Origin: an uncultured Rhodospirillales bacterium
GTDB lineage: Bacteria; Pseudomonadota; Alphaproteobacteria; ATCC43930; CGMCC-115725
Direction: 5' to 3'
Assembly: GCA_903822185.1 (NCBI GenBank)
Contig: CAIJOA010000011.1
Location: 806,001-870,000, forward strand
DNA length: 64,000 nt
Notes under the pieces: model-generated
What the model was told of the DNA's origin: nothing
Databases searched by the model: none
What the model saw: the letters and a program-made list of their open reading frames with translations, nothing else
Part shown: positions 4,590-23,431 of the stretch, piece by piece
How positions within the stretch are numbered: the first letter of the stretch is position 1
Layout of the letters: each line of letters starts with the position of its first letter
Position numbers and translations under genes: made by a program

Positions 4590-5666
4590 ATGCGAGGGAT
4601 CGTTGCCGTCGCGGCGCTGACACTATTCGGAATCGGCGCCGCCGAGGCGGAGACAGTGACGATCAATCCCGCGCTCACCAAAGTGATCGAAGGCGCAAAG
4701 GCCGAGGGTGCCTTGTCGTTGCGATCGACTGCCGCTCTATTCGCCGGCGCCGGCGGCGCAAAGCGCGCGCAGGACGCCATCAACAAGGCCTTCGGCACGA
4801 AGCTCGTCATCGAATGGACGCCTGGCCCGGCCTACGGTCCTCTCGCTGCGATTCTCCATCAAGAACTCCAAGCAGGACAGCCGGCTTCGACCGATGTCTA
4901 TACGGCGTCAGCGGTGCAGATCACGGGCTATCTCGACAAGGGACTATTCCAAAAAGTCGATTGGCCAAACCTTTTGCCCGACCGCGTGACGCCGGCGATG
5001 GTCGAGGGCGAAGGCCGCGCCCTACGTTTCCAAACCGTGCTGCAAGGAATTTTGTACAACGTAAAGGCCGCGCCGTGGGCCGCCGACATCAACACGATCG
5101 CCGATTTTTTGAAGCCCCAATACAAAGGCAAGTTCTACACGACGCCTTTCCTCAGCGGCTTCGATGTGCTGCTGGCTGACGATGTCTGGGGCAAGCCCAA
5201 GACCGAAGCATTTGTTCGCGAATATGCGCAACCGATCGCCGGGCTTGCCGGCTGCGAGGCAAGCGACCGGGTGGCCTCGGGTGAAATTCCGGCATTATTC
5301 TCCTGCACTGGCGGCTCGACCCGGCGGGAGGAATTTCGCGACAAAGGCATCATCGACATTCATATCGTGTCGGACTTGGCGCAAAAACGCGAAAATTACA
5401 TGGCCATTCCCGCCAACGCGCCGCATCCCAATGCAGCGATTCTTTACTCGCTTTACATGATGACGCACGATGGCCAGGAAGACCTCATCTACGATATTAT
5501 CGGCAACGATCTATATGATTTCCCGGACTCCCATGTTCGTCGTGAAGTTAGTAGGCTCGAAGCCAACGGCGTGAAGTTCATCGATGTAACGATCGATTGG
5601 TGGCGCGCTCATCCCGGCCTCGACGAGGCCAATACGGCGCTCGCCAAATTGGTGCGCGAGAAATAG
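4590..5666 (+). CDS. ABC transporter periplasmic substrate-binding protein, paralogue 4 of 4
   Basis: 358 residues from the ATG at 4590, 5 nt after paralogue 3. It has a short signal peptide (cleavage near AEA|E, residue 20). The family blocks are kept, with distinct variants: FAGAGGAK instead of FGGPEGAK, HQELQAG instead of YQEMQAG, and ALFSCTGGSTRREEF instead of the DCSGG-NR segment. The cysteine pair itself is retained. This is the most diverged copy and lies next to the permease, 11 nt upstream of its GTG start. Tandem duplication is evident; function as a solute receptor is inferred from the family and the operon. Confidence 0.9.
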   Translation: MRGIVAVAALTLFGIGAAEAETVTINPALTKVIEGAKAEGALSLRSTAALFAGAGGAKRAQDAINKAFGTKLVIEWTPGPAYGPLAAILHQELQAGQPASTDVYTASAVQITGYLDKGLFQKVDWPNLLPDRVTPAMVEGEGRALRFQTVLQGILYNVKAAPWAADINTIADFLKPQYKGKFYTTPFLSGFDVLLADDVWGKPKTEAFVREYAQPIAGLAGCEASDRVASGEIPALFSCTGGSTRREEFRDKGIIDIHIVSDLAQKRENYMAIPANAPHPNAAILYSLYMMTHDGQEDLIYDIIGNDLYDFPDSHVRREVSRLEANGVKFIDVTIDWWRAHPGLDEANTALAKLVREK

Positions 5667-18628: not shown

Positions 18629-19126
18629 TTATTCCTTCAGCAGAAACGGCAGCTTCGAGTTGCGAAGCAGAACAAGCCAGCGCACCGCGTTGATCAAGGC
18701 GAACGACGCGGCAGCAACGCCGGCGACGGCAAACCCAAAAGCGATCGGGCGATGGACAACGGCGGCATAAACCGCGGCGGCCGCCGGCGCTGCGGTGGCG
18801 ACGCCACCGGTGGCAACGGCGAAGATCGCGTTGCGTTTCTCGCGACGCAACGCGGCAAGCAATTCGGATGCAGTTGGGTCGATTGCCAACGGAACTTGTG
18901 CAACCGGCACTTCGCGCAGTTGCGCGGCACGCGCACGCAGTTGATTACCCGGCAGATCTGCGATCTCGATCGCATCATCGTTGGCAGCAGCCGCAACGAG
19001 TGTCGGCCGGCGCAACGGAACGACGGTTCCGGTGAGCGACGCGTCTTCCGGCGCAGCACGGCGCCACCAGTAAAGTGAATCCAATCCCGTGCCGGAACGG
19101 TCATCAAGCAGATCGACGTTAGCCAT
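18629..19126 (-). CDS. Conserved-looking membrane protein with C-terminal transmembrane hairpin
   Basis: 165 residues from the ATG at 19126, with GGAGG at good spacing. The first half is soluble and has an LR-rich stretch (TVVPLRRP, NQLRARAAQLRE). The last 60 residues form two membrane helices: AIFAVATGGVATAAPAAAAVY and IAFGFAVAGVAAASFALIN, then a short tail. The second helix closely resembles that of the divergent gene at 19320 (IGFGIAGLVASFIGLIT), where the hairpin is N-terminal. No family recognised. Confidence 0.75.
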   Translation of the reverse strand: MANVDLLDDRSGTGLDSLYWWRRAAPEDASLTGTVVPLRRPTLVAAAANDDAIEIADLPGNQLRARAAQLREVPVAQVPLAIDPTASELLAALRREKRNAIFAVATGGVATAAPAAAAVYAAVVHRPIAFGFAVAGVAAASFALINAVRWLVLLRNSKLPFLLKE

Positions 19127-19319: not shown

Positions 19320-19796
19320 ATGAGTGATCATAAACCGGTGGCGATTGCGATGATCGTCGGCTCGCTGGCTCTTGCTGCTAACGGTGCCGCGGCCTTCGTC
19401 GCCTTGTCGGTCACGACGCAGCCGCAAGCGATCGGTTTCGGGATCGCAGGCCTTGTCGCCTCGTTCATCGGATTGATCACCACCGCCGTTTGGGCGCGAC
19501 GCCGTGACGTCGTTGTGCGCGAGGTGCAACAGCGCCCACCGATCCTGACACCTTGGACTCCCGTAGCAGAGACTGAAGAAGAAGATGAAGCGTTTGCGTC
19601 GGCGCCGCTTGAAGAAGCTCTATTGGCGGCTGAAGAAGAAGCTCACCTGGCCTACCTCGCTGCCGGCCGTAGCTTTGACACCGTGCCCGCGATGGAAGCG
19701 GCAACAACATCGGCGGGCGACAACGTCGTTCAGCTTCGGGACTGGGTTCGCACGCATCGCCGCTCGGTGCCGCAGCGCCAACTCGGGAACTCTTAA
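19320..19796 (+). CDS. Membrane protein with N-terminal transmembrane hairpin and acidic tail
   Basis: 158 residues from the ATG at 19320; GGAGG precedes it. Two membrane helices (AIAMIVGSLALAANGAAAFVA and IGFGIAGLVASFIGLIT) come first, then a basic stop-transfer ARRR, and a soluble acidic domain (ETEEEDEAFASAPLEEALLAAEEEA) ending with GDNVVQLRDWVR. The hairpin is similar to the one at the C-terminus of the divergent gene 18629-19126, as if the same module had been attached to opposite ends of two proteins. No family recognised; function unknown. Confidence 0.7.
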   Translation: MSDHKPVAIAMIVGSLALAANGAAAFVALSVTTQPQAIGFGIAGLVASFIGLITTAVWARRRDVVVREVQQRPPILTPWTPVAETEEEDEAFASAPLEEALLAAEEEAHLAYLAAGRSFDTVPAMEAATTSAGDNVVQLRDWVRTHRRSVPQRQLGNS

Positions 19797-19907: not shown

Positions 19908-20516
19908 ATGGCTGTAAAAGACGATCTTCCCACATCACCCCCGCAAGGCGCGCCGCGCAATCCCGGCCGGCGCATGTTGCTGGGCGGTATTCCGATCGCC
20001 GTCACCCTGGCGAGTAAGCCAGCGCTGGCCAGCGTCGGGCAATGTTCCGTCTCGAACGCGCTGTCGGGCAATCTATCGCATCCGATTCCGGCCGGCATAA
20101 ATTGCGGCCTGACGCCGTCATCGTGGGTCAGCCTCGCCGGCACCAATCAGCTGTGGCCACGTACGGCGATGTATCCGCAGACGACATTCTCGACGGCTTG
20201 CGGCTCGCCCGGCATGAGCAGCAATTGGACCATCGGCGCTCAATCGATGCTCGCGGCGCTGCAGGGCAGCCTCGTCATCACCTGCAAGATCAAAGGCAAC
20301 AAAACCACCCTCAACGCCGGGCTTTTCGGCGAACAGGTTGCGGCGAGCCTTTTGAACGCAGCCGCCTTCTCGCCGAACAATTACACCAAGACGCTGTCGC
20401 AAATTCAGGCGATGGTATCGCCGATCTGGTTGTCCTCGCCGAACAGCTCGAGCCAGGCGCAAAGCTCGCTCGATTCGGTCACGACCCAGCTCGCCCCGCT
20501 CAACATCAATAGCTGA
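19908..20516 (+). CDS. Secreted protein of unknown function in PqqD/HprK-related cassette
   Basis: 202 residues from the ATG at 19908. An N-terminal region with RNPGRRMLLGGIPIAVTLA and cleavage near ALA|S looks like a Sec or Tat-type signal: two arginines precede a short hydrophobic stretch. The mature part contains four cysteines (QCSVSN, NCGLTP, ACGSPG, TCKIKG), presumably two disulphides, and a Ser/Asn-rich C-terminal half. No enzyme motif was recognised. It lies 15 bp before a PqqD-like chaperone gene and an HprK-related kinase gene, so it is a candidate substrate or output of that system. This is inference from order only. Confidence 0.7.
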   Translation: MAVKDDLPTSPPQGAPRNPGRRMLLGGIPIAVTLASKPALASVGQCSVSNALSGNLSHPIPAGINCGLTPSSWVSLAGTNQLWPRTAMYPQTTFSTACGSPGMSSNWTIGAQSMLAALQGSLVITCKIKGNKTTLNAGLFGEQVAASLLNAAAFSPNNYTKTLSQIQAMVSPIWLSSPNSSSQAQSSLDSVTTQLAPLNINS

Positions 20517-20531
20517 CGCGGCCGTCGCGCG

Positions 20532-20812
20532 ATGACCGCCGCCCCGATCGCACGCCGCATCGGTCCCGCCGTGCAATGGCGCGATTGGGATGGCGAGATT
20601 GTCGCTTATAACGACCGCACCGGCGACACCCATCACTTCGCCGATCTGGCCGCCTGGATGTTTCGTTTGCTGATCGCGCGAACACTGGATGAATCCGGCA
20701 TCCGCGCCGCCGCCGAAGCCGAGATCGAATTGCCCCCGCGATCGACCGCGATGCCGCTATCGCACGCACCATCGCTTTGTTCGATCAACTGGAACTGACC
20801 GAGGCCGCATGA
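20532..20812 (+). CDS. PqqD-family peptide chaperone (HPr-rel-A type), frameshifted at a C5 tract
   Basis: The frame from the ATG at 20532 encodes a PqqD-like domain: VQWRDWDGEIVAYNDRTGDTHHF, then DLAAWMFRLL and a helix ending AEAEIE. After the run of five C at 20733-20737 the frame turns into unlikely sequence and stops at 20798. One base added in the C run restores a natural C-terminus (IDRDAAIARTIALFDQLELTEAA) that ends in TGA at 20810-20812, overlapping the kinase ATG in the usual coupled way. So the real gene is most likely 20532-20812 with a +1 problem at the C run: an indel mutation, a sequencing error, or slippage. PqqD-like proteins present peptides to modifying enzymes. Confidence 0.7.
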
Positions 20813-21681
20813 ATTCGCTCGCAATGCGGCTTGGCCCTTTCACGGCGACGCTGGAAACGCCGTTCGCATCATTGGTGGACGGGCTGCATCAGCTTTACCG
20901 GCCCGAACTCTTCGACGTCTCCGACAGCTTCGCCGACTTTCATGTGAGCCTCGCGCCCGGCAAAGGCGTACGGCGCTGGTTCCGGCAACAGGCGCGCTTT
21001 CTTGTCGATGGCGAAAGCCCCTTCATGCCGCTGCCGGCGGATCAGGCCCTGCCTATGTTCGAATGGGGACTCAATTACGCGATCGCCGCGCAAGCGCATC
21101 AGTATCTGGTCGTTCATGCCGCTGCGATCGAACTCAATGGCCGTGTCGCGATCCTGCCAGGCGCGCCCGGCGCCGGCAAAAGCACCCTGACCGCGGCGCT
21201 GGTTCAGCGCGGCTGGCGGCTTCTGTCGGACGAACTGGCGCTGATCCGCCCCGAGGATGGCCATGTCGTACCGTTGGCGCGGCCGATCAATTTGAAGAAC
21301 CGTTCGATCGACATCATGCGCGATTACGCGCCCGAGGCTGTCTTCAGCCGCGAGACGCACGACACGGCCAAGGGAACGGTTGCACTGATGCGTGCGCCGG
21401 ACGACAGCATGCGCCGCGTCGGCGAAAGCGCGCCGGTCGGCTGGATCGTCTTTCCGCGCTGGAAGGAAGATGCCGAGGCGCGCATGGAACCATGGTCGCG
21501 GCCGGCGGGATTGATGGAGATCGCGCATAACGCGATGAATTACAGCCTACACGAAGAGCGGGGCTTCAACGTGCTGGCGAATATTTTCGAGCAAAGCGGC
21601 TGTTACCGCTTCACCTACAGCAAGCTCGACGACGCCATCGAGCGCTTTGCAGCGCTCGCGGCGTCATCACTTCAATCTTGA
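20809..21681 (+). CDS. HprK-related kinase A
   Basis: 290 residues from the ATG at 20809, which overlaps the restored PqqD frame (ATGA). A P-loop GAPGAGKST (118-126) sits in the characteristic HPr-kinase context, preceded by HAAAIELNGRVAIL and followed by RGWRLLSDELALI, whose acidic residues correspond to the HprK active site. The N-terminal ~110 residues are specific to the HprK-related A family found beside PqqD-like chaperones. No HPr or PTS gene adjoins, so the phosphorylated target is probably not the classic HPr. The other partners (nucleotidyltransferase, asparagine-synthase-like) sometimes seen in such loci are absent here. Confidence 0.9.
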   Translation: MNSLAMRLGPFTATLETPFASLVDGLHQLYRPELFDVSDSFADFHVSLAPGKGVRRWFRQQARFLVDGESPFMPLPADQALPMFEWGLNYAIAAQAHQYLVVHAAAIELNGRVAILPGAPGAGKSTLTAALVQRGWRLLSDELALIRPEDGHVVPLARPINLKNRSIDIMRDYAPEAVFSRETHDTAKGTVALMRAPDDSMRRVGESAPVGWIVFPRWKEDAEARMEPWSRPAGLMEIAHNAMNYSLHEERGFNVLANIFEQSGCYRFTYSKLDDAIERFAALAASSLQS

Positions 21682-21753: not shown

Positions 21754-21990
21754 TCACTTCCAGACCGGCTGGCCGAGATAGACTTGCGAAGGATCGGTCG
21801 CAGCACCTGCCGTCGCACCGACCGCGCCGCCGACCAGAGCGCCGATGAGCGGCGCCCCTAAGACAGACCCGATCAACGCACCGCCCGCAGCACCGAACCC
21901 GGCGCCGGTCAAAGCACGATCCGTCGGGGTCTGCCCGCAGGCAGATAGAAGCAGCGCGACAGCGAACGCAAAAACCACAGATTTACGCAT
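21754..21990 (-). CDS. Small glycine-zipper lipoprotein
   Basis: 78 residues from the ATG at 21990. The signal is a lipoprotein type with lipobox LLSAC (FAVALLLSAC). The mature part is a glycine-zipper region, GAGFGAAGGALIGSVLGAPLIG with GxxxG spacing, followed by GGAVGATAGA, as in OsmB/YmgG-like outer-membrane lipoproteins of unknown function. The protein ends in YLGQPVWK. A hairpin at 22063-22095 lies upstream, between it and msrP on the same strand. Confidence 0.85.
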   Translation of the reverse strand: MRKSVVFAFAVALLLSACGQTPTDRALTGAGFGAAGGALIGSVLGAPLIGALVGGAVGATAGAATDPSQVYLGQPVWK

Positions 21991-22062
21991 GGGAGGGCTC
22001 CCCCTGAAAAATTGTCTTCGGGAAACGCTATCAGAAGAGCCCAACGTTAACAAGGACTTCTA

Positions 22063-22095
22063 CCAGACTCCTCGTTACTTTGACTAAGAGTCTGG
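22063..22095 (-). terminator. Inverted repeat downstream of msrP
   Basis: CCAGACTC at 22063-22070 pairs with GAGTCTGG at 22088-22095 across 17 bp. It lies 15 bp after the msrP stop on the minus strand. No T tract follows on that strand, so it is a weak terminator candidate or 3-prime stabilising hairpin. Each arm contains GAGTC, a CcrM-type GANTC site. Confidence 0.45.
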
Positions 22096-22109
22096 TTTAG
22101 AAGCTTGAT

Positions 22110-23090
22110 TTAGGCGAACAGCCGTTCCGATTTGAGGTTGTCATACATCGACGCGACGTATTCGCCGTAGCCGTTCCACGGCAGGGTCGGTTTGCGCTCG
22201 CCGCCGCCCAGAATACGCTCGCTTGCTTGGCTCCAACGCGGATGCGGCACTTCGGGATTCACGTTCGCCCAGAAGCCGTATTCGCTGGCGTTCAGCTTTT
22301 CCCAATAGGAGACCGGCCGCTTGTCGGTGAAGCTGAACTTCACGATCGATTTGATCGACTTGAAGCCGTATTTCCACGGCGTCGCGAGGCGCAGCGGCGC
22401 GCCGTTCTGCTTCGGCATCGAATGGCCGTACATGCCGGTAGCGATGAAGGCGAGATCGTTGGTCGCTTCTTCCATCGTCAGGCCCTCGATATAGGGCCAG
22501 GGATACCAGAACATCTTTTGCCCCGGCGCCATGCTGGGATCTTTGAAGGTGGTCATTTGCAGGTATTTCGCGCCCGACGTCGGCTTCGCCAGCGCGACCA
22601 AATCCTTCAGCGGAAAGCCGCTCCACGGCACCGCCATCGACCATGCTTCGACGCAGCGATGGCGATAAAGCCGTTCTTCGAGCTGAACCTTCTTCAACAG
22701 ATCGTCGATGCCCATCGTCATCGGCTTTTCGACCATGCCGTCGATCTCGATCGTCCAAGGCCGGATCTTCAATTTCTGCGCGGCGTCGGAAATGCCTTTG
22801 TCTTCGCCGTATTCGTAGAAGTTGTTGTAGGTCGTCGAGAATTTCTCATCGGTCATCGGCCGATCGAGCGTGTATTTGTCGTTCTTCTTGGCAGGATAAA
22901 GCCCGGCCGACGGATCGGTCTCGGGCGCTGTCGCGGCAAAGGCCTGACCGAAAGGCAGCGAGCCGGCGCCGGCGGCGAGGATCGTCCCCAATCCCATCGC
23001 TTTCAGAACATCGCGGCGGTCGTGGAACACCGATTCCGGCGTCGCTTCGCTCTCGCGCATTTCCCAGCCGCGTTTCACCTTGATCAGCAT
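22110..23090 (-). CDS. msrP: Protein-methionine-sulfoxide reductase catalytic subunit MsrP (YedY)
   Basis: 326 residues from the ATG at 23090 with GGAGAG upstream; the frame's earlier starts are not credible. A Tat signal HDRRDVLKAMG (RR at 25-26) leads to the periplasm, as required for a folded molybdopterin enzyme. The molybdenum-ligating cysteine is Cys146 in LYRHRCVEAWSMAVPW; the family blocks FNNFYEYG-type (NNFYEYGEDK) and MYGHSMPKQNGAPLRL are present. It repairs oxidised methionines in envelope proteins. The usual membrane haem partner MsrQ is not next to it: the downstream gene is an unrelated lipoprotein. Moco genes are encoded at 34.8-37.3 kb. Confidence 0.94.
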   Translation of the reverse strand: MLIKVKRGWEMRESEATPESVFHDRRDVLKAMGLGTILAAGAGSLPFGQAFAATAPETDPSAGLYPAKKNDKYTLDRPMTDEKFSTTYNNFYEYGEDKGISDAAQKLKIRPWTIEIDGMVEKPMTMGIDDLLKKVQLEERLYRHRCVEAWSMAVPWSGFPLKDLVALAKPTSGAKYLQMTTFKDPSMAPGQKMFWYPWPYIEGLTMEEATNDLAFIATGMYGHSMPKQNGAPLRLATPWKYGFKSIKSIVKFSFTDKRPVSYWEKLNASEYGFWANVNPEVPHPRWSQASERILGGGERKPTLPWNGYGEYVASMYDNLKSERLFA

Positions 23091-23431
23091 GGCCCACTCT
23101 CCTTCACGACGAATCAGCGATAAACCCGCGATCCGGACGCTGCAAGTCAAAGAAACGCGATTGCCGCGTACCATCATCTTGTTCGCCCGCAACCGGGAAA
23201 AGTTACCCCGTCGCTATCGATACGATGCAAAGGGATGTGAAGATCAGGGGAAATGGGCGCTCCGTTCCTATCCGCAGCCTTATTTCCCCCAAACGCCCAC
23301 ATTATAGGGGTATTTTGCACGGCACCGATGCGCCCAACGATTTGACATCGGGGCCGCTTCCTTGTTGTCTTTGCTGAGATTTCAGCAGAGCACGCGGGCT
23401 GAAGCGCGGGCGGCGGTTCGGAGGGAAAATC
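23091..23431. promoter_or_regulatory. Divergent promoter region between two molybdoenzyme genes
   Basis: A 341-bp gap. On the minus strand a perfect TATAAT at 23301-23306 would start a roughly 200-nt msrP leader; a stem of GGGGAAAT (23247-23254) with ATTTCCCC (23282-23289) would sit near its 5-prime end. On the plus strand TTGACA at 23342-23347 with TTGTCT 17 bp later (23365-23370) is a possible promoter for the CoxL-like gene, whose start at 23432 follows GGAGGG. No clear gene in the gap. Confidence 0.45.

Follow-up and report, generated by a model that had tools for sequence, protein, structure and literature searches.

An HprK-related kinase A cassette with a recurrent exported partner protein in an alphaproteobacterial genome

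According to excerpts of PMC9266682 and PMC8498205, lasso peptide clusters can encode HprK-like kinases with His, Lys, Asp and Asp (His-Lys-Asp-Asp) that phosphorylate a Ser of the precursor, and in the case of pseudomycoidin the phosphate is then decorated with one or two hexoses by a nucleotidyltransferase; enzymes of this kind occasionally occur as fusions with the B2 protein (PMC8498205, excerpts). A second described system, HPr-rel-A, is given by two profile models, i.e., TIGR04352 for HprK-related kinase A and TIGR04353 for a PqqD-like protein; a nucleotidyltransferase of family PF14907 is its usual companion and stands outside the profile definition. Neither HprK-related kinase A (HPr-rel-A) nor PF14907 (NTP_transf_5) is named in the literature searched, which lay mostly outside subscription journals and yielded no account of the system, and the available parts of PMC9850573, PMC1569441 and PMC11340318 do not contain the system. 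As the kinase is known only from profile models and goes unnamed in this literature, we found no substrate in print.

The locus described here resembles HPr-rel-A in a kinase well above the family cut-off, in a PqqD protein of the corresponding family and in the gene order of its relatives; it differs in the addition of a recurrent exported partner family and, in the clade studied, in a nucleotidyltransferase located at an XrtA locus. With the pseudomycoidin (PsmK/PsmN) and paeninodin (PadeK) systems it shares an RRE-type protein, an HprK-like kinase, a nucleotidyltransferase (likened to PsmN by enzyme type) and an encoded precursor. Unlike these lasso systems, however, the locus encodes a partner of 202 aa (members of its family mostly measure 180-290 aa as ORFs) and no short peptide, the unit has neither a lasso cyclase C nor a B2 protease, and the putative modification site is not C-terminal across the family.

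The three-gene cassette

The window, i.e., the whole stretch of 64,000 nucleotides that was analysed, carries at positions 19908-21681, on one strand (+), reading frames for an exported protein (202 aa), a PqqD-like protein and a kinase (290 aa). The initial annotation had described these genes as one short cassette, and the reading frames and profile matches show that this three-gene unit is real. The kinase (20809-21681, +), which likely starts at the ATG at 20809, matched TIGR04352 with 361.5 bits over 280 of 280 positions (cut-off 200); no second strong match was obtained in the genome of 4.27 Mb. Against TIGR00679, the model for HprK/P, it scored 25.3 bits (cut-off 240), with the sequence match confined to the P-loop region. 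Its structural model (pLDDT 94.7) has a predicted HprK/PEPCK-type fold; it aligned with PEPCK from end to end (Z 17.2; 278 residues; rmsd 4.8) and also matched HprK/P (Foldseek), the HprK/P and PEPCK folds being related. The stretch running from His through the P-loop to Asp aligns with HprK, and three elements of it are invariant among the 23 kinases of alignment A4, namely (i) His103 (21115-21117, +), which precedes the Walker A motif, (ii) Walker A itself, GAPGAGKST (residues 118-126; 21160-21186, +; invariant at G121 and G123-T126), and (iii) the catalytic-type pair Asp141-Glu142 (21229-21234, +), aligned to LIADD of L. casei HprK. The kinase thus resembles HprK/P in its P-loop, upstream His, Asp and fold match, but differs from it in falling far under the TIGR00679 cut-off and in having no adjoining HPr gene. 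Family profiles identified neither an HPr gene nor lasso enzymes among the eight proteins scanned, i.e., the cassette and its neighbours.

The middle gene (20532-20798, +) matched TIGR04353 (PqqD_rel_X) over profile positions 1-50 (of 74) with 28.2 bits, which is less than the 35 that the family cut-off requires. The initial annotation had overlooked a frameshift that breaks the reading frame. The C-terminus as listed, PPRSTAMPLSHAPSLCSINWN, is unlike both intact orthologues compared; the other frame, from approx. position 20735, reads PAIDRDAAIARTIALFDQLELTEAA and stops at the TGA at 20810-20812, which overlaps the kinase ATG (ATGA). This second stretch (20735-20812, +) is the true PqqD C-terminal coding stretch, as it aligns with the intact orthologues of L117 and L035; the PAIDRDAAIARTIALFDQLELTEAA tail reached alignment scores of 56 with the same-genus orthologue (vs. 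15 for the listed tail) and 44 with the REEB11 orthologue (vs. 18). Intact PqqD orthologues scored 38.8 and 42.7 bits against TIGR04353, above the cut-off, and the PqqD-like protein of the window falls below it because of the frameshift. Relative to close relatives, the frameshift consists of one base in a C5 run (at approx. 20733-20737; affected stretch 20733-20812) and may reflect either a mutation or an assembly error.

Upstream of the cassette are two small ORFs of membrane type (18629-19126, -; 19320-19796, +) that could be assigned to no family; by eye, L035 and L117-L120 have relatives of the second one ahead of their cassettes. Downstream, the minus strand at 21754-23192 carries genes for a glycine-zipper lipoprotein and for MsrP (methionine sulfoxide reductase catalytic subunit), and similar genes are found downstream of the L035 cassette.

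Recurrence of the exported partner

Kinase loci were collected by two scans. Among 289 genomes of the class, eight (including that of the window) were above the kinase cut-off, and a broad scan of 84,980 species, with one genome per species, contributed its best 80 kinase loci. The seven class loci and these best 80 make up the 87 other listed loci (88 with the window). Six of the seven class loci have a Cys-bearing leader protein adjoining PqqD; in L003, also a class locus, a polysaccharide export gene takes the place of the partner. An iterated precursor profile found one protein per locus in 85 of the 88 listed loci (84 of 87 without the window) and missed L003, L009 and L043, of which L009 carries a leader protein by eye. 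All 84 non-window matches are located on the strand of the kinase, and PqqD was found at 85 of the 87 other listed loci. In L096 the precursor gene (4815-5474) is located 3' of the nucleotidyltransferase and not ahead of PqqD.

As the mature parts of the exported proteins diverge, the family is detectable only by profile. With the window protein as a lone query, the 289 class genomes yielded no credible relative (two matches with stop codons were ignored), and in alignment A3 all but one of the 60 other members were 16-30% identical to the window protein, the exception being L035 (56%). The profile built from A3, which contains 61 of the 85 precursors (selected among the named loci, together with the window), matched eight of the 289 class genomes, i.e., six of the eight kinase-positive genomes and two others (P = 1e-9; Fisher's exact test, which here and below treats genomes as independent, although they are not). 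The two others were kept in the counts; one (G269) was judged a false positive, representing a solute-binding protein with a Tat-type leader, and the other (G124) is a leader protein near a contig end.

A sample of 299 genomes from the phylum (Pseudomonadota) included 51 kinase-positive genomes, 36 of which were matched by the precursor profile; in 30 the match is located just upstream of the kinase, as judged from coordinates read by hand, with off-contig or off-strand matches (G478, G393, G382, G444, G570 and G493) excluded from this adjacent count. For the remaining 21 genomes, 19 upstream stretches were inspected; the other two are G012, which is the same as L009, and G478, whose kinase gene runs off the contig. 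Of these upstream stretches, 11 contain a leader protein, as does L009. In total, 42 of the 51 kinase-positive genomes have a leader protein just ahead of the kinase and seven have none, and in two the contig ends (G478, and G493 with only 33 bases upstream). The comparison of gene neighbourhoods for a recurring exported protein, as proposed in the initial annotation, was thus borne out in both sets of loci. The recurrence across kinase loci also refutes a chance adjacency of the three genes in the window, an explanation that draws on nothing but the absence of a neighbouring nucleotidyltransferase and has a practically negligible probability.

Overall, these data show that a known, uncharacterised kinase system has a dedicated and undescribed family of exported partners, which is a broader result than the cassette alone had indicated. 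The view that kinase, PqqD and exported protein form one system, with the exported protein as the prime candidate for its product, survived this test of recurrence, with the modification itself being inferred. Based on the strength of the genomic association, we consider with good confidence that the exported protein is the substrate of the kinase; that the kinase phosphorylates it is probable. One alternative is that the kinase regulates another protein, either HPr-like or an exopolysaccharide enzyme, and that the exported protein is only co-expressed, with a structural or sensory role. A regulatory function is known for HprK itself, and L003, L043 and G393 have the kinase and a nucleotidyltransferase without the exported protein, partly beside exopolysaccharide genes. 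A PqqD-type binder at 85 of 87 listed loci and a tight one-to-one association with the precursor, however, suit a dedicated substrate better than a regulator, and the lack of an HPr gene among the eight scanned cassette and neighbour proteins also argues against regulation, which we regard as unlikely.

Leader, motif and fold of the exported protein

The exported partner in the window (19908-20516, +; ORF of 202 aa), our candidate substrate, matches no Pfam or NCBIfam family. When 61 family members were compared with the same collections, there was no credible match and three weak ones, each to a single member; the partner family is thus undescribed and without a Pfam or NCBIfam model. The leader of the window protein reads GRRMLLGGIPIAVTLASKPALA and includes a twin-arginine core, RRMLLGGIPIAVTLASKPALA (residues 21-41; 19968-20030, +), in which R21 and R22 are nearly invariant (alignments A2 and A3). 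Among the 85 homologues from the listed loci, the leader follows the consensus SRR[RK][FL]x[KR]xG...TLxSRPxLA, with the twin Arg followed by a hydrophobic stretch, and has the layout of an export signal (S-R-R-x-[FL]-x-[KR], a hydrophobic stretch and A-x-A). The Tat models TIGR01409 and PF10518 did not match the window protein; PF10518 matched weakly in L002.

The mature part opens with a motif common to the family, C-[ST]-x-S-x-x-x-S-G-N-x-S, which in the window reads C-S-V-S-N-A-L-S-G-N-L-S (C46-S57; 20043-20078, +) and which, by its conservation, represents a candidate phosphoacceptor region. Among the 85 homologues from the listed loci, conservation was 84/84 for C46, 71/83 for [ST]47, 80/85 for S49, 80/85 for S53 and 70/81 for C66; a PG[YF]W[KR]N-like stretch is also conserved over the 85 homologues. 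Positions nearly invariant in both A2 and A3 are R21, R22, C46, S49, S53, C66, L149 and N150 (window numbering). The four cysteines that the initial annotation had emphasised are indeed exactly four in the window protein (residues 46, 66, 98 and 126), but this number is not a trait of the family; homologues from the listed loci have 2 to 11 Cys, with exactly four in 19 of 85, and C46 alone is invariant, with C66 being usual. A recurrent partner with a near-invariant Cys/Ser motif makes the substrate of the kinase directly testable.

Lasso-like chemistry would place the modification elsewhere, i.e., on a C-terminal Ser or Thr, as for PadeK and PsmK, which act on a C-terminal Ser (PMC9266682, excerpts). 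Proteins of the window clade do end in LNIN[ST] (window, L035 and L117-L119), and the last residue of the window protein is Ser. However, a C-terminal Ser or Thr occurs in 17 of the 85 homologues from the listed loci, which is close to the background of 18%, and this reading is therefore highly improbable. We favour the motif over the C-terminus as the probable site because of its conservation, the C-terminus not being enriched for Ser or Thr.

The AlphaFold model of the window protein (pLDDT 80.5; pTM 0.71) has a confident domain from approx. residue 70, with a predicted folded part of approx. 130 residues, and the motif is located in a low-confidence, probably flexible stretch ahead of this domain. 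Foldseek searches with the model returned nothing at E<=0.001, no sequence relative was found in the PDB, and the best VIA-align hit (Z 4.0; 84 residues; rmsd 4.2) was a designed helical repeat, which does not imply a new fold. These features also bear on a RiPP-like explanation, in which the leader would be recognised by an RRE, rather than serve as an export signal, and its cleavage would yield a modified product, either a peptide or a small protein. A conserved leader ahead of strongly divergent mature parts would suit such a pathway, as would the relation of PqqD homologues to RRE proteins, which we take to be peptide binders. The export-signal layout of the leader, the size of the predicted folded domain and the absence of a protease or transporter gene within the three- or four-gene unit nevertheless make this explanation improbable.

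Mimicry of HPr by the motif (e.g., CTISGMMSGNLS in L061, which resembles the HPr Ser46 loop KSIMGVMSLG) was pursued as a candidate and gave a weak lead only. The sequence KSIMGVMSLG was confirmed as HPr, and we take Ser46 to be the HPr acceptor residue. HPr segments around Ser46 ranked top, picking out the motif in 25 of 84 precursors, as compared to up to 16 for unrelated HPr segments, and 14 of 300 10-mer shuffles equalled or beat the Ser46 segments.

Five alphaproteobacterial loci (L005-L009) encode proteins that keep the leader and Cys but are unrelated in the mature part, which has no Ser-Gly motif; these possibly represent a second type of substrate. In two public plasmid records the partner gene, next to genes for HprK-related kinase A and a nucleotidyltransferase, carries the annotation "hypothetical protein". 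In one of them, a Vibrio alfacsensis plasmid (L166, 4875-7942; precursor, kinase and nucleotidyltransferase), the partner reads SRRRFIRSAAISSPILLSIKSPSAWA...CSITSCMSGNAS; the presence of these genes on a plasmid indicates that the system can be plasmid-borne.

Nucleotidyltransferase and exopolysaccharide genes

A PF14907 nucleotidyltransferase gene is located directly 3' of the kinase in 86 of the 87 other listed loci, the family having been named by profile for two of these adjacent proteins. The window has no PF14907 gene beside the kinase, as the initial annotation had stated for the cassette; this holds for the cassette neighbourhood but not for the genome, which encodes a single PF14907 protein on another contig, beside an XrtA exopolysaccharide locus. 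The family to which the window belongs comprises 39 genomes, and a kinase match at E<=1e-20 was obtained in 11 of them. Full kinase loci are present in eight relatives within this family, each including a precursor; four show the three-gene form (L117-L120, of which L120 is identical in sequence to the named REEB11 locus L035) and four have PF14907 next to the kinase (L121-L124). L125 has a different, weaker kinase and L126 is a remnant. The five genomes with the three-gene form (including that of the window) each have exactly one PF14907 gene, located elsewhere, and in all five it adjoins wza-like and chain-length genes; in G000, G299, G321 and G322 it shares a contig with XrtA, at a distance of no more than approx. 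9 kb. Apart from XrtA, the genes at the exopolysaccharide locus of G000 were named by us from their sequence and from known families. The nucleotidyltransferase thus normally completes the operon and has moved to the XrtA exopolysaccharide locus in the clade of the window.

XrtA is also associated with the kinase at the level of genomes. In the class, XrtA (E<=1e-3) was found in 7/8 kinase-positive genomes as compared to 32/281 others (P = 3.6e-6; Fisher's exact test, genomes again treated as independent), and in the phylum sample XrtA above the cut-off was found in 15/51 kinase-positive genomes as compared to 5/248 others (P = 3.6e-9; same test and same treatment). A wza-like gene is present in the flanks of 28 of the 87 listed loci; when a set of six genes (exopolysaccharide or XrtA) is considered, 31 of these loci have at least one there. 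Strict dependence on XrtA was considered and ruled out; XrtA is not obligatory, since at E<=1e-30 it is absent from 30 of the 51 kinase-positive genomes and since G318 has a full cassette with no XrtA detected. The cassette thus co-occurs and partly co-locates with the XrtA/PEP-CTERM system, but its exported partner has no PEP-CTERM tail; inspection by eye of the 85 homologue tails from the listed loci revealed none with the PEP-TM-basic arrangement. For a role of the cassette in exopolysaccharide production we regard the case as evenly balanced, and the link to XrtA points to colony, floc or biofilm form as features in which a phenotype may be sought.

On a Deinococcus psychrotolerans plasmid (L168, 3782-5119), a protein annotated as lasso B2 consists of PF14907 and Transglut_core3, and no other annotated lasso gene is located within 4 kb. 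This fusion ties the PF14907 family to a lasso-type role and, together with the precedent of lasso kinases and nucleotidyltransferases, leads us to propose the following order of events. The PqqD-like protein, as an RRE-type binder, would present the precursor, probably via its leader region, and the HprK-related kinase A would phosphorylate a Ser or Thr of the motif that opens the mature part. By analogy with PsmK/PsmN, the PF14907 nucleotidyltransferase may then cap the phosphate with a hexose or a nucleotide, a step that we put forward more tentatively. The folded, modified protein would leave the cell through the Tat pathway, a route that fits because Tat carries folded proteins that were modified in the cytoplasm. 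In lineages that have XrtA, the exported protein might take part, at the cell surface, in producing XrtA-type exopolysaccharide. Taken as a whole, the cassette probably represents a dedicated modification and export unit in which the kinase phosphorylates, the nucleotidyltransferase caps and the exported protein acts in exopolysaccharide production. If so, lasso-type phosphoglycosylation would extend to secreted proteins in bacteria. A further extension, in which a general phosphoglycosylation pathway yields a Tat-exported glycophosphoprotein that serves as primer or anchor tying XrtA-type exopolysaccharide to the cell surface, is speculative and rather doubtful.

A natural loss was observed in G319, which belongs to the genus of the L118-L120 genomes and has neither PF14907 nor XrtA. 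The joint loss of cassette, PF14907 and XrtA is suggestive and represents one event in one draft genome. At the remnant locus of G319 (L126), a natural deletion fuses the leader of the precursor to the C-terminus of the kinase.
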